Origin: a virus
IMG/VR virus record: IMGVR_UViG_3300032287_000417
Span: 1 to 31,620 of that record
Length of the DNA: 31,620 bases
Reading direction: 5' to 3' (one strand)
Part shown: one piece after another, positions 15,662 through 23,859 of the stretch
Numbering within the stretch: position 1 is the first letter of the stretch
Layout: every line of letters begins with the position of its first letter
Translations under genes and position numbers: made by a program
Notes under the pieces: generated by a model
The model's input: the letters and a program-made list of their open reading frames with translations, nothing else
Database searches by the model: none
What the model was told of the DNA's origin: nothing

Positions 15662-16910
<1,249 letters not shown>

Positions 16911-17226: not shown

Positions 17227-17850
17227 GTGGCCAATAACAATCAGATTTACAAGATGAGTAATGCGGGTGGCTTTAAGAGCCTTAACCGCTATTACGATAT
17301 GTTGGCTGGCAATACTGTGTGGAACCCTTGGGAGCCGCAGGGTGCCTATGATGCTTTGGCTACAGTTACTGTGCCATCAGGTGGCGCTGCATCTGTAACA
17401 TTTGCTGGCATTCCAACTACCTATAAGCATTTGCAGATTCGTATGATGGCTCGTTCAACAGTAGCTGGTTCAGAAGATTCAGTGCTTATGCGATTTAACG
17501 CAGACACCGGATCTAACTACAGCTATCATTTCTTGTTTGGAAATGGCTCATCTGCTAACGCATCTGCTACAAGTAGCGCGGCATTTATATATCCTTGGGC
17601 AATACCTGGTGCAACCTTTGCAAGTAACGCTTTTGGAGTTCAAATAATGGATATTCTTGATTACGCAAATACTAGCAAGAATAAAACAACTAGAAATTTT
17701 GCTGGCTATGATGACAACTCAACAGGCGGAAGAATAGCTTTTACATCTGGCGCTTGGTACAACACTAGCGCTGTAACATCTATATCAATTACAGCTGGCA
17801 GTGCAAACATTGCTCAATACTCTTCTTTTGCTTTATATGGGGTAAAATAA
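17227..17850 (+). CDS. Receptor-binding-type beta protein, paralogue 1 of 3
   Basis: 207 aa from GTG, immediately after the previous stop; GGAG lies about 9 bases upstream. Residues 1-38 are a unique N-terminus with NRYYDML and WNPWEPQGAYDALAT, plausibly the attachment part. From about 40 onward it is clearly homologous to the next two genes: AASVTFAGIPTTYKHLQIRMMARST, a middle NTSKNKTTRN region, WYNTSAVTSISIT and the ending SSFALYG. This domain is beta-rich, Asn/Ser/Thr/Tyr-rich and resembles surface-exposed phage adhesins. The gene is richer in AT and in aga/aat codons toward its 3' end than the capsid genes, as expected for fast-evolving tips. Confidence 0.75.
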   Translation: MANNNQIYKMSNAGGFKSLNRYYDMLAGNTVWNPWEPQGAYDALATVTVPSGGAASVTFAGIPTTYKHLQIRMMARSTVAGSEDSVLMRFNADTGSNYSYHFLFGNGSSANASATSSAAFIYPWAIPGATFASNAFGVQIMDILDYANTSKNKTTRNFAGYDDNSTGGRIAFTSGAWYNTSAVTSISITAGSANIAQYSSFALYGVK

Positions 17851-17851
17851 T

Positions 17852-18340
17852 ATGCCAACTAATACATATGTAGCCCTTGCTACTCAGACACTTGGTAGTG
17901 CTGCAGCATCAGTAACCTTTAGCTCTATCTCACAAACTTATACAGATCTTGTGATTGTCTGTAACACAGGAGCTACTTCATTAGCAAATGACTATGTTCG
18001 TCTTAATGGAGATACTACCTCCAATTATTCTTGGACTAGAATATATGGAACAGGTAGCGTTGCTGGGTCTTCAAGAAGCGCAAACGATTCAGGAATGATT
18101 GTAGGAGATGTAACCACCTCTATTGCAGTTACACAAACAATTACTGTTCAAAATTATTCTAATACAACCACTAACAAAACAATTCTTGCAAGAAGCTCCG
18201 CAACTAATAGCGCTGCAACAGCATCAGTGGGGCTTTGGAGAAACACAGCTGCGGTTACTTCAGTGACTTTATATCCAAACGGAACAACTTGGCTATCAGG
18301 CTCAACCTTTACAATTTATGGAATATTGGCGGGGAGCTAA
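17852..18340 (+). CDS. Receptor-binding-type beta protein, paralogue 2 of 3
   Basis: 162 aa, one base after the previous gene's stop. It is nearly the bare domain: TYVALATQTLGSAAASVTFSS (start), TYTDLVIVCNTG, TTNKT in the middle, LWRNTAAVTSVTLYPNG and STFTIYG at the end, colinear with paralogues 1 and 3. It lacks the longer N-terminus of paralogue 1 and the glycine-rich extension of paralogue 3. Expected role: part of, or alternative to, the tail tip that contacts the host surface. Domain-to-domain identity looks low to moderate, so the duplication is old or the proteins are evolving quickly. Confidence 0.75.
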   Translation: MPTNTYVALATQTLGSAAASVTFSSISQTYTDLVIVCNTGATSLANDYVRLNGDTTSNYSWTRIYGTGSVAGSSRSANDSGMIVGDVTTSIAVTQTITVQNYSNTTTNKTILARSSATNSAATASVGLWRNTAAVTSVTLYPNGTTWLSGSTFTIYGILAGS

Positions 18341-18342
18341 CA

Positions 18343-19713
18343 ATGCCAAACAATTATATCCTTTTAGACCGTATTGAACTCAATGCATCAGCTGCATCAG
18401 TTGTTTTTAGCAACATTCCTCAGACCGGTTATACCGATTTGAAAATTGTTATTTCAGCGCGGTCAACAGCAACTCCAGGCAATCCTGATGATGGTTTATT
18501 TTTACAAGTCAACTCCATTGCATCTGGTTATTCCAATAAAACTGTATATGGAACTGGTGCAAGTGCGTTATCTTCAAGTAATGCCTATGGAGTAACTTCC
18601 AAAACATATATCTCTGCATTGACCACAGCTAATGCAACAGCAAATACTTTTGGAAATACAGAAGTTTACATACCAAACTATGCTGGCTCAACAAACAAAT
18701 CAATGTCTATTGATGGTGTGATAGAGAACAACGCTACATCTTCAATCGCAAATCTTACTGCTGCACTTCTATCAAATACTGCTGCAATTTCTAGCCTTAC
18801 CTTAACACCAAACACTGGTTCATTTGTACAATACTCAACCTTCTCACTCTATGGCCTAGCAGCAGTAGGTACAACACCTGCTATCGCACCAAAGGCTAAT
18901 GGCGGTAACGTCATTGGAACTGATGGCACTTACTGGTACCACGCATTCCTTAGCAATGGAACCTTTACACCGCAGGTAACACTTACTTGCGACTACTTAG
19001 TAGTAGCAGGTGGTGCTGGTGGTGGTGCAGCTGATGCTGGAAGTACCAACTATTCTGGTGGTGGTGGTGCTGGTGGACTTCGTTCAACAGTAACAGCAAC
19101 CGGTGGCGGTGGTTCATTAGAATCAGCAATCGGTGTTGCATCAGGAACTAACTACACAATTACTGTTGGTGCTGGCGGTACAGCAACTGCTGCTGCTTGG
19201 ACTAGCGGTAGCTCTTCTACGTTTTCAACAATCACAGCAACTGGTGGTGGAATTGGTGCAGGATTAAACTCAAGTCCTGGGTGGGTTGCACCAGGCACCG
19301 GCGGATCTGGTGGTGGTGGTTCTGAAGCAGACACAGCTGGTGCCGCAGGTACTGCAAACCAAGGTTATGCTGGAGGAACTTCTCCTGGCGGTCCTTCTGG
19401 TAATGCTGGTGGTGGAGGCGGTGGAGCAGGCGCCGTAGGTGTCAACGGAACTACTAACAACGGTGGTGCCGGTGGCGCTGGTGTAGCTATCTCAGCTTTT
19501 GCAACTGCAACAGGAACTGGTGTAAGCAACTACTACGCTGGTGGTGGTGGAGGTTCAGGCAGTTCTACTGCAGGGGCTGGAGGCTCTGGCGGTGGTGGAG
19601 CCGGTAACGCAACAGCAGGTACCGTCAACACCGGTGGCGGTGGTGGCTCAGGTAGTCGCTCAGGCGCTGCAGGTGGTTCAGGTATTGTTATTATCAGATA
19701 TTTAGTAGCTTAA
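18343..19713 (+). CDS. Adhesin-like tail protein: paralogue 3 fused to polyglycine domain
   Basis: 456 aa. I place the start at 18343 (MPNNYILL), 2 bases after the preceding stop with GGGGAG upstream; an earlier in-frame ATG at 18235 would overlap the previous gene by over 100 bases and add 36 residues unlike the paralogues. Residues 1-171 repeat the domain of the two preceding genes (AASVVFSNIP, YTDLKIVISARST, LLSNTAAISSLTL, STFSLYG). Residues 188-220 (TDGTYWYHAFLSNGTF, then CDYLVVAGG) start a glycine-rich domain that runs to the end with GGGG/GGAGG runs, closing IVIIRYL. Such domains form polyglycine-helix sandwiches in some phage tip adhesins. The same module recurs at 23065-23859. Confidence 0.82.
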   Translation: MPNNYILLDRIELNASAASVVFSNIPQTGYTDLKIVISARSTATPGNPDDGLFLQVNSIASGYSNKTVYGTGASALSSSNAYGVTSKTYISALTTANATANTFGNTEVYIPNYAGSTNKSMSIDGVIENNATSSIANLTAALLSNTAAISSLTLTPNTGSFVQYSTFSLYGLAAVGTTPAIAPKANGGNVIGTDGTYWYHAFLSNGTFTPQVTLTCDYLVVAGGAGGGAADAGSTNYSGGGGAGGLRSTVTATGGGGSLESAIGVASGTNYTITVGAGGTATAAAWTSGSSSTFSTITATGGGIGAGLNSSPGWVAPGTGGSGGGGSEADTAGAAGTANQGYAGGTSPGGPSGNAGGGGGGAGAVGVNGTTNNGGAGGAGVAISAFATATGTGVSNYYAGGGGGSGSSTAGAGGSGGGGAGNATAGTVNTGGGGGSGSRSGAAGGSGIVIIRYLVA

Positions 19714-19725
19714 AGGAGAAATAGA

Positions 19726-20043
19726 ATGTCACATTGGGCAGAGATAGATAACAGCAACACAGTCCTACGGGTTCTAGTTGGGGACAACGCAGATCCGGCA
19801 GGAGATGAAGGCTACCAATGGTTACTTGATAACCTTGGCGGTACTTGGATTAAGACAAGCTATAACGCAACCATCAGGAAAAATTACGCAGGAGTTGGGT
19901 TCCAGTATGACTCAGAGCGTGATGCCTTTATCCCGCCTAAGCCAGAGTGCCACCCTGATGCAATCACATTTGATGAGGCAACCTGCCTATGGTCTTGCCC
20001 TGATGCCACTCACGTAGTTATCCAAGGAGAAGAAAATGTCTGA
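19726..20043 (+). CDS. Conserved small phage protein of fibre region (WI-TSYN / KNYAG type)
   Basis: 105 aa, excellent ribosome binding site AAAGGAGAAATAG. The pattern MSHWAEIDNSNTVLRVLVGD, then GGTWIKTSYNATIRKNYAGVG, then YDSERDAFIPPKP, and a C-terminal segment with Cys and Trp (CLWSCP) matches a small protein widespread in T4-like cyanophages and other aquatic phages, usually near fibre or structural genes; this is from memory. Its function is not established to my knowledge. The stop lies 8 bases inside the next gene. Confidence 0.8.
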   Translation: MSHWAEIDNSNTVLRVLVGDNADPAGDEGYQWLLDNLGGTWIKTSYNATIRKNYAGVGFQYDSERDAFIPPKPECHPDAITFDEATCLWSCPDATHVVIQGEENV

Positions 20044-20260
20044 TAAGAAGCTAATCGTAGACCTAGCTACAAATACACAGCGCTATGTTGACCTGACAGC
20101 TGAGGAAATCCAACAGCGTGAGCTAGATGCTATTGAGGCAGCTACTCGCAAGGCTGAAGAAGATGCAACAGCTCAAGCCAAGGCAGATGCTAAGGCATCA
20201 GCTCTTGCAAAACTACAGGCGCTAGGCCTTACTTCAGAAGAGGCAACTGCTATCCTTTAA
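20036..20260 (+). CDS. Small helical protein, tail-fibre-region accessory
   Basis: 74 aa, ATG preceded by AAGGAGAAGAAA, overlapping the previous gene by 8 bases. Short beta start (KKLIVDLATNTQRYVDL), then a long Ala/Glu/Lys coiled coil (residues about 22-58) and a final small helix ALGLTSEEATAIL that looks like a UBA- or Ter-like helical hairpin. Similar 'start plus coiled coil plus LxxLGLT' proteins lie beside fibre genes in many phages and may be fibre chaperones or stalk pieces. Role inferred. Confidence 0.72.
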   Translation: MSDKKLIVDLATNTQRYVDLTAEEIQQRELDAIEAATRKAEEDATAQAKADAKASALAKLQALGLTSEEATAIL

Positions 20261-20262
20261 GG

Positions 20263-21348
20263 ATGAAGATAGCCGTATATACCATATGCAAAAATGAGGA
20301 GAAGTACGTTGAAAGCTGGTACCAGTCTTCCAAGGAAGCCGACTACCATCTCCTCGCAGATACAGGCTCAACCGACAAGACCGTCGGTATTGCTGTTGGT
20401 CTTGGAATCAAAGTTGTGCGTATTGGTATCAATCCGTTTAGGTTTGATGACGCAAGGAATGCGTCGTTAGCTTTAGTACCAGATGATATTGACTACTGCA
20501 TTGCACTAGATGTAGATGAAGTGTTAGCACCAGGTTGGCGTAAGCACCTAGAAGAAGCACACGCTAAGGGTATTGATCGTCCCACCTATCGTCGTATTGA
20601 ATCCTTTAAGGAAGACGGTAGCCCTGAAGCTGAGTTTGATGGGTTCAAGGTACACCGTAGGAACGGTATACGTTGGCACTATCCAATCCACGAAGTACCT
20701 CACTGGTACGGCGAGGGTGAAGAAGTTAAAGAACGTATAGATGGCTTTGAGATACATCATCACCAGAACAAAGAGACATCACGTGGGCAGTACCTGCCTC
20801 TACTAGAGATGGCAGTTCGAGAGAACCCAGATGCCAGAAACTTGTACTACTTAGGTAGGGAGTATACCTACTACAAGCGTTATGAAGAAGCTGCAGATAA
20901 CCTTAAGAAATATCTGGAGCTATCAGTCTTTCCACAAGAGAAGAGCGCAGCGTGCAGAATGCTGGGCAAGATAGATACTGATAACGCAGAAGAGTGGTTC
21001 ATCAAAGCCACAGAAGAATACCAATGCCGCGAGTCAATGCTGGCACTGGCTAACTACTATTACTTAGAGAAGCAGTGGGATGAGTGCAACCTAGTTGCAA
21101 AGCAAGCCCTGCTCTTTACAGAAAAGCCAATGGAGTTCCTAGCTGAAGGTTGGGCTTGGACACATATGGCAGATGATCTTGTTGCAGTTAGTGCGTGGCA
21201 ACTTGGTAACTTTACAGAAGCACTAGAGCACGGTCTGAAGGCGTTAGCAATAACACCTGATGATGAAAGATTACAGAGCAACGTCACGTTCTATCAAGGG
21301 AAAATAGATGCCAAGCTTAACTCAACTGATGTCAGAGGTGCAGACTAA
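20263..21348 (+). CDS. Family 2 glycosyltransferase with helical-repeat C-terminus
   Basis: 361 aa. The N-terminus MKIAVYTICKNEE is the GT2 nucleotide-sugar-binding start; ADTGSTDKT (32-40) is the Asp-Thr-Gly-Ser motif, and DVDE (83-86) replaces the usual DXD for metal-diphosphate binding. HEVPH at 143-147 and a His-rich HHHQNK at 165-170 follow. Residues 175-350 are helical with TPR-like repeats (ARNLYYLGREYTYYKRYEEA; MLALANYYYLEKQWDECN; WQLGNFTEALEHGLKAL). GT2/TPR enzymes transfer sugars to proteins or glycans, so modification of virion proteins or of the host surface is possible. The ATG follows the previous stop by 2 bases with no separate Shine-Dalgarno gap, so reinitiation is likely. 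It overlaps the next gene by 41 bases. Confidence 0.85.
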   Translation: MKIAVYTICKNEEKYVESWYQSSKEADYHLLADTGSTDKTVGIAVGLGIKVVRIGINPFRFDDARNASLALVPDDIDYCIALDVDEVLAPGWRKHLEEAHAKGIDRPTYRRIESFKEDGSPEAEFDGFKVHRRNGIRWHYPIHEVPHWYGEGEEVKERIDGFEIHHHQNKETSRGQYLPLLEMAVRENPDARNLYYLGREYTYYKRYEEAADNLKKYLELSVFPQEKSAACRMLGKIDTDNAEEWFIKATEEYQCRESMLALANYYYLEKQWDECNLVAKQALLFTEKPMEFLAEGWAWTHMADDLVAVSAWQLGNFTEALEHGLKALAITPDDERLQSNVTFYQGKIDAKLNSTDVRGAD

Positions 21349-22219: not shown

Positions 22220-23065
22220 ATGACCCGCCTATACTCCTCAGTTTCAGTAGAGACAACGCTATCTGCTGGTATTACAAACTCACAGACAACTATGCCTGTA
22301 GCTGCAGGTACCGCTGCAGCACTTCTTGGTGGCGTAACTCTTGCCGCTGGCAACGTAGACCAGTTCACAGTTGCTATTGACCCAGACACAGCTAACGAAG
22401 AAATTGTATTTATCACTGCCAACTCTGGCGATAACTTTACTATTGTCCGTGCTCGCTCTGGTACATCTGGTATTGCTCACAACTCAGGTGCTCTAGTCCG
22501 TCACGTAATGACATCTAATGATCTTGATTTTTTCAAAGTAGCTATCCAGCCAAGCATTGTTACAGCTAAGGGTGACATTATTGGAGCATCAGCTTCAAGC
22601 ACACCTGTACGCGTTGCTGTAGGAACAGACGGTCAGGTACTCACAGCTGACTCAGTACAAGCAAAGGGAGTTAAGTGGGCTACACCAGCTGTTGGTGATG
22701 TAACTCTTACCGGAACTCAGACTCTTACTAACAAGACTTTGACAGCTCCAGTAATCACAACACCCAAGACAACACTTGGTTTTAATGCACAGACAGGTAC
22801 AACATACAGTCTTGTATTAGCAGACAAGGACAAGATTGTTACTCTTAGCAACGCATCAGCAATTACCTTAACTATTCCTAACGGAATCTTCTCTGCTGGA
22901 GACTTTGTAAACATCCAGCAAATTGGCGTAGGTCAAGTAACCGTTGCTAATGATGGAACAACATCCTTTACTGGTACTGGCACCAAGCTTAGAGCACAGT
23001 ACTCAGCAGCAACTATTATCTGCATAGGAACTAACACGTTCACTTTGGTGGGTGACATTCTCTAA
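22220..23065 (+). CDS. Tail fibre-like structural protein
   Basis: 281 aa, ATG preceded by AAGGAAAACC. The first 95 residues form a beta-domain with an [14 protein letters not shown] pattern and [20 protein letters not shown] phage-fibre linker follows ([19 protein letters not shown], near 137-155), then [21 protein letters not shown], a repeat-like linker frequent in phage tail fibres, and a C-terminal beta domain ending FTLVGDIL. It is followed by another glycine-rich gene with a one-base overlap. I judge fibre-like identity good, exact role unknown. Confidence 0.75.
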
Positions 23066-23859
23066 TGCCAATACTCGGTATCTTAGGATCGGGTGGGCGT
23101 AAGCCAATAGTCACAGGCGGAACGCTTTACTCAGACGCAACATATTATTACAGAGCCTTTACTGGCAATGGCACATTAGCTGTTACCCGTTTTAATTTAA
23201 CAGCTGATGTACTTGTTATTGCAGGTGGTGGCGGAGGTTATGTCAGCGGTCTATCTGCTGGTGGAGCTGGAGGCTATCGTTATTTTTCAGCATTAAGTTT
23301 GACTCCTGCTAACTACGCTTGCACTATTGGTAATGGAGGGGCAGGCGAAACTGCTTATGCAGCCAACAATAACACCAAGGGTGGCAACTCATCTATTATT
23401 GGTGGAGCTATTTCTTACTCATCAACAGGTGGCGGTACTCCAGGACCAAACGCTAACGGCGGCTCTGGTGCAGGAGGCGGAGGCACTGGAAACCAAGGCG
23501 GCTACACCCCAGTAGAGGGTTACAACGGAGCAACCTTTGCATCAGGTGGCGCTGGGGGCGCAGCTCTCAACACACCAATTTACGGAACAGCAGGACCTGG
23601 ATCCGCAGCACAATCTACTTGGGGTCAAGTTACTGGCTTAGGTCAAAACGTATCTGGAACTTATTACTTTGCTGGCGGTGCTGGTAATGGTAAGGACACA
23701 TACCAAGGCATTCCACAAGGTGCATCAGGTGCTGGTCAATCAGGAGCAGGTGGTGGTGGTTTAGCTGGTGGTCGTGACGCAGGAGAAAGTTCCTGGTATG
23801 CAGCAGGCAACGGTGTTAACGGAGCAATCATTGTTCGATACTTGAAGACGGCGGTGTAA
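23065..23859 (+). CDS. Glycine-rich adhesin-like protein
   Basis: 264 aa, ATG overlapping the preceding stop by one base. Residues 13-55 (TGGTLYSDATYYYRAFTGNG then LTADVLVIAGGGGG) match the start of the glycine-rich module in the 456-aa protein at 18343, and the C-terminus (GAIIVRYL) matches its end (GIVIIRYL). Between them lie GG/GGA/GGG-rich stretches with interspersed Asn, Ser and Tyr. A polyglycine-type tip domain is expected, so this is a second copy of the same adhesin module without the preceding beta domain. Receptor unknown. Confidence 0.78.
   Translation: MPILGILGSGGRKPIVTGGTLYSDATYYYRAFTGNGTLAVTRFNLTADVLVIAGGGGGYVSGLSAGGAGGYRYFSALSLTPANYACTIGNGGAGETAYAANNNTKGGNSSIIGGAISYSSTGGGTPGPNANGGSGAGGGGTGNQGGYTPVEGYNGATFASGGAGGAALNTPIYGTAGPGSAAQSTWGQVTGLGQNVSGTYYFAGGAGNGKDTYQGIPQGASGAGQSGAGGGGLAGGRDAGESSWYAAGNGVNGAIIVRYLKTAV

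Follow-up and report, generated by a model that had tools for sequence, protein, structure and literature searches.

Receptor-binding fibres of phages are almost always homotrimers, so that every chain does each job three times. Glycine-rich adhesin tips carried on such homomeric fibre trimers have been described for S16-type gp38 and for gp24 of the myocyanophage Pam3 (PMC12892980, PMC9608196). A different arrangement is found in the virophage DSLV2 and in Aquatic Virophage 1, which possess three consecutive paralogous tail genes that fall into positional clades (PMC12724248). These tail proteins (196-247 aa, with Pfam PF07484 collar domains and modelled on T4 gp37) were co-purified as a 1:1:1 heterotrimer, reported to be a fibre with a receptor-binding head (PMC12724248). 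Our search of the literature on heterotrimeric tail fibres returned no tailed-phage case, only the DSLV2 virophage and the head cement of phage T1, which is weak evidence since most subscription journals and preprints were outside its scope.

Here we analyse three genes, A, B and C, of the IMG/VR virus record IMGVR_UViG_3300032287_000417 (31,620 bases; the whole of this stretch is referred to as the window). As in DSLV2, the window has three consecutive paralogues that are kept as a set (225 of 231 complete arrays) and that group by position, not by genome. Unlike in DSLV2, the genes belong to a tailed phage, and a heterotrimer is proposed here from the genes and a structural model, whereas the DSLV2 complex was co-purified. 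PF07484, the domain of the DSLV2 proteins, gave no match in A, B or C even at E-values up to 1; the window genes thus appear to work like the DSLV2 tripartite tail without being members of its family. The division between an anchor arm and a glycine-rich tip, which is present in the window family, is absent from the passages on DSLV2 that were consulted (PMC12724248). C resembles S16-type gp37/gp38 and Pam3 gp24 in its layout, with a glycine-rich adhesin lying distal to a beta domain. However, gp24 is a homotrimer and S16-type gp38 is a separate protein seated on the gp37 trimer, whereas in the window family the tip forms part of the same polypeptide as the domain in one or at most two of the three paralogues, the remaining one always lacking it.

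Three consecutive paralogues with different added parts

The three consecutive open reading frames listed by the initial annotation are present as stated (Table 1), and they share a homologous, colinear beta domain of ~165 aa. Using B as the query against its own genome, tblastn recovered A at 38% identity (E 5.8e-16) and C, over its N-terminal part, at 41% (E 2.1e-15), with no match elsewhere in the record. Pairwise scores among A, B and C lie 18-20 SD above those of composition-preserving shuffles, none of 500 shuffles scoring as high, while nearly all pairings with further proteins of the window that are rich in beta structure or repeats stay close to zero in the same test. Together with the alignment, these results bear out the common domain that had been proposed from shared motifs; the motifs are indeed colinear, although 'NTAAVTS', which had been assigned to the middle of the domain, lies in its C-terminal third. 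The three proteins also differ in their added parts as had been described, i.e., an N-terminal arm on A, none on B, which is a bare domain, and Gly_rich_2 on C, where the Pfam match (E 5.6e-21) reaches 76.0 bits against a gathering cut-off of 24.3. Pfam and PHROGs searches returned nothing for A or B. The end originally given for the system, 18855, is near the end of the domain of C, and the system extends to 19713.

Table 1 Coordinates of the three genes, their parts and the two downstream neighbours in the window
Feature	Position	Strand	Description
ORF A	17227-17850	+	207 aa, GTG start
A N-terminal arm	17227..17340	+	38 aa, VANNNQIYKMSNAGGFKSLNRYYDMLAGNTVWNPWEPQ; putative virion anchor; such arms on A only
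A paralogous beta domain	17341..17850	+	residues 39-207; clade A ('HLQIR', 'DILDY')
ORF B	17852-18340	+	162 aa
B paralogous beta domain alone	17852..18340	+	162 aa; clade B ('YTDLVLV', 'NYSNTTTYKT', 'GLWRNTAA')
ORF C	18343-19713	+	456 aa counted from ATG
C N-terminal paralogous beta domain	18343..18867	+	residues 1-175; clade C ('YIPNYxGSxxKSxS', 'ENN')
C C-terminal glycine-rich tip	18955..19701	+	residues 205-453; Pfam PF21722 Gly_rich_2
105-aa protein, phrog_7759	19726..20043	+	neighbour of triplet in some relatives
74-aa small acidic/helical protein	20036..20260	+	triplet's most constant neighbour, without family match

The genes are inherited as whole triplets

Relatives were collected from IMG/VR and GenBank, and A, B and C each served as a separate seed for loci, so that one member did not force the presence of the others. 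Each scan contributed its best 80 matches ranked by similarity, and the counts therefore describe the close family; the search favoured close relatives of A, B and C and under-sampled distant single-copy ones. After redundancy removal at least 373 loci were kept, in 231 of which the array is flanked by at least 1 kb on both sides (complete arrays). A profile of the three domains recovers about three domain copies per locus in the IMG/VR relatives. Among the matches listed, 215 of the 231 complete arrays are ABC, nine are ABCABC and one is ABCABCABC, giving 225 arrays of the (ABC)n type. The other six comprise an ABCABC array whose first C is fused to its second A in one protein via an FN3-like segment (L280), an ABC array whose A is split into two frames by a frameshift (L287), an ABC array with a remote fourth relative (L261), and three distant loci, the sole single copies among the 231 (Streptomyces phage Intolerant, L160; Erythrobacter phage vB_EliS-L02, L161; and L014). 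Besides these explained cases, no array of one, two, four or five genes was seen in the close family (231 complete arrays). The triplet family is very common in aquatic viromes, being found on at least hundreds of IMG/VR contigs. A scan of 84,980 cellular genomes gave only two matches (L312 and L313). These contigs belong to a single MAG of an uncultured actinobacterium, which hints weakly either at an actinobacterial host or at phage contigs in the bin.

Position within the array, rather than genome of origin, determines similarity. The nearest neighbour in other genomes occupies the same position for every domain of the three-copy arrays (343 of 343); mean identity is 44-49% for the same position versus 31-34% for different positions, even inside one genome. 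In the tree, A, B and C are each set apart as one clade by a single branch (support 99, 83 and 99, respectively), two changes account for all position labels, and class assignment has a margin of no less than about 10 bits in all of the cases listed. In seven larger arrays that we examined, with six to nine genes, the order is (ABC)n throughout and the copies of the unit are 34-50% identical. This order, at such low identity between units, indicates that the triplication is ancient, that duplication acts on whole triplets, and that single members were not lost. Mirror-tree comparison of A, B and C showed a weak correlation of their distances (Spearman 0.30-0.34), with the same nearest genome in only 4-5%. 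Inter-chain covariation (mean-field DCA/MI) exceeded that of shuffles and was dominated by a subfamily split common to all three genes; a comparison of AB, BC and CA with the reverse pairings, as a sign of a fixed cyclic order, revealed no difference.

Arms, tips and gene spacing are position-specific

N-terminal extensions are a property of A. These are short arms, e.g., MPILGxxAS..SG or the SNAGGFKSLNRYYDMLAGN of the window, or longer FN3-type arms (L250, L326, L252, L479, L259, L261, L242, L281 and L162), and the FN3 arms extend A only, B and C normally beginning at the domain. No two A copies of the nine-copy array (L495) share the same arm. C-terminal glycine-rich tips are distributed differently: among three-copy arrays, 161 have none, 19 have one on C only and 34 on both B and C, and A never bears one. 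A tip on B only was assigned by the automatic rule in 3 of 342 triplets, all of them incomplete or multi-array. One A gene (a 497-aa ORF in L427) has a glycine-rich segment ahead of the domain, the sole N-terminal, A-borne case seen.

The genes abut or overlap, with median gaps of 2 nt between A and B and -1 nt between B and C, as expected under coupled stoichiometric synthesis. Junctions of over 200 nt occur at 14 A-B and 10 B-C boundaries. ORFs of 100-190 aa that by eye resemble free-standing HNH homing endonucleases are found exactly between A and B or between B and C (e.g., L039, 1578-1982 and 2488-2973; L238, 1361-1915 and 2413-2835; L276, 1261-1662), the triplet itself being intact. The fused protein of L280 (5989-7299) consists of a C domain, the FN3-like segment and an A domain and bridges two ABC triplets; this natural fusion suggests that triplets can be linked in series.

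Predicted packing and fold of the domains

For structure prediction, we made use of a locus (L190) in which the three genes lie in one frame, parted by a few codons and stops; reading the stops as Gly gives a natural A-B-C string with linkers of 18-20 residues, for which the alignment was built from 10 same-frame ABC and 17 BC strings. The AlphaFold2 model of this string has a pTM of 0.83 and a mean pLDDT of 82.9, and only the arm and the linkers are disordered. By our estimate, three domains without a defined mutual arrangement would give a pTM of roughly 0.35-0.4. The model predicts, with confidence, that A, B and C pack together in a defined way, and is compatible both with a heterotrimer and with homotrimers of a conserved interface. 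Instead of the unrelated families or differing folds that would have argued against paralogy, all three domains show the same strand order within this one model. The model of full-length C of the window (mean pLDDT 90) has a well-ordered glycine-rich part with few regular strands.

A sequence search of the PDB found no relative of the domain. When the fold of the domain monomer was compared with the PDB, the best matches were concanavalin-A-like lectin sandwiches, namely laminin LG, ERGIC-53 and galectin, and these were weak (E 0.01-0.2, low TM); Foldseek of the fused model against the PDB was uninformative, and a fold search of BFVD yielded only unnamed phage proteins and glycine-rich proteins. 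The profile of C weakly matched the Pam3 tail fibre across the glycine-rich part (E 0.003); the Pam3 fibre was not among the PDB fold matches listed.

Genes neighbouring the triplet

A homologue of the 74-aa protein is present in 229 of 281 loci, in 188 of them directly downstream of the array, and this protein is a possible assembly factor or chaperone. The 105-aa phrog_7759 protein has homologues in 79 of the 281 loci, directly downstream in 64. Just upstream of the triplet, the window encodes a collagen-like repeat protein (15996-16910), which matches Pfam Collagen and tail-fibre PHROGs and in which a non-collagen domain separates two collagen stretches. Further downstream are a protein combining glycosyltransferase family 2 with TPR (20263-21348), located inside the structural gene module, and a second Gly_rich_2 protein of 264 aa that resembles the tail of C (23065-23859; shuffle z 10).

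Discussion

We consider it likely that A, B and C are the chains of one obligate 1:1:1 heterotrimeric host-facing fibre or adhesin. The shared beta-sandwich-like domain would be supplied once by each chain, and the three domains would pack round a pseudo-threefold axis; the N-terminal arm of chain A would anchor the trimer to the virion, while chain C, and in some relatives B too, would bear a C-terminal glycine-rich receptor-binding tip. An obligate heterotrimer would account for the strict set of three, for its duplication as a set and for the placement of arm and tip at separate positions. Points against the heterotrimer model are the weak mirror-tree signal among A, B and C, the subfamily split that dominates the inter-chain covariation, and the tips on B as well, which the model does not demand. 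Receptor binding is suggested by the tail-fibre neighbourhood, which also points to a location on the tail, by the glycine-rich tip and by the weakly lectin-like fold. C1q, of the vertebrate complement system, likewise has three paralogues, A, B and C, that form an obligate heterotrimer of specialised chains; its fold and function are different, and the comparison with the window genes is an analogy only.

The set may have originated when a single-copy fibre gene, whose product was probably a homotrimer, was triplicated and the copies specialised, after which it would be inherited and duplicated only whole. Distant copies of the domain occur in gp29 of Streptomyces phage Intolerant and in the tail fibre of Erythrobacter phage vB_EliS-L02 (annotated as such), where the domain sits at the end of, or within, a longer protein with a long N-terminal part; these single-copy proteins are presumably homotrimeric.

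The main rival explanation is a series of stacked homotrimers, A3, B3 and C3, in one fibre with A proximal and C distal, in the way that gp34, gp36 and gp37 of T4 stack serially into one fibre. Such a stack would also explain why the genes co-occur in a strict order, with arms on A and tips on C; the C-FN3-A protein of L280 could represent a longer stack; and, phage fibres being normally homotrimers, an interface shared among paralogues would also yield a high pTM. Nevertheless, B and C consist of the domain without any stalk or helix for stacking, a stack does not readily accommodate the tips that 34 ABC arrays carry on B, the middle chain, and domains of equal length and one fold resemble protomers rather than layers. 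Moreover, a stack would be expected to vary in its number of layers, and arrays of one, two, four or five genes are absent from the close family besides the explained cases. Overall, we regard stacking as unlikely, though it is the most plausible of the alternatives.

The initial annotation had offered two readings, a hetero-oligomeric tip or alternative receptor modules, and was half right, in that its interpretation is partly supported. The hetero-oligomeric tip is now well supported by comparative genomics and modelling (triplets, positional orthology, triplet duplication and position-specific extras). The other reading, in which three alternative or redundant receptor-binding modules each form their own homotrimer for a different receptor, has in its favour that the domains differ by 60-70% and that their attachments differ. 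We disfavour it and hold it to be very improbable, because interchangeable modules would come, go, swap or be reordered singly, none of which is seen in 231 complete arrays that keep and duplicate the set whole; in addition, B and C lack an anchor arm. Decoration of the head by a heterotrimer or a protein set has a precedent in the mixed trimers of phage T1, whose head cement proteins are 1:2 heterotrimeric (PMC11945409). However, we found no similarity to cement proteins, and the neighbours of the triplet are a collagen-like tail-fibre-type protein, phrog_1084/3304 (L-shaped tail fibre assembly) and the tail-fibre-like p281, which makes a head location improbable, albeit somewhat less so than alternative modules.

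Returning to the heterotrimer, we lean towards the broader view, with less assurance than for the trimer itself, that a tailed-phage family swapped a homotrimeric fibre for an obligate heterotrimer of anciently diverged paralogues, thereby splitting anchor from tip, presenting three unlike faces, and giving rise to multi-fibre arrays by duplication of whole heterotrimers. This widespread and unannotated fibre is probably heterotrimeric, a 1:1:1 heterotrimer with different domains having already been published for virophage DSLV2. If the proposal is true, the two cases together would point to a repeated evolution of three-gene heterotrimeric fibres. In such an obligate heterotrimer, attachment could be carried out by one chain and host recognition by another, and a single adhesin could sit on a threefold support without symmetry mismatch. 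Since A and B have no PHROG or Pfam model, giving the family a name would allow a set of tail-fibre genes to be annotated in a very large number of uncultivated phages.
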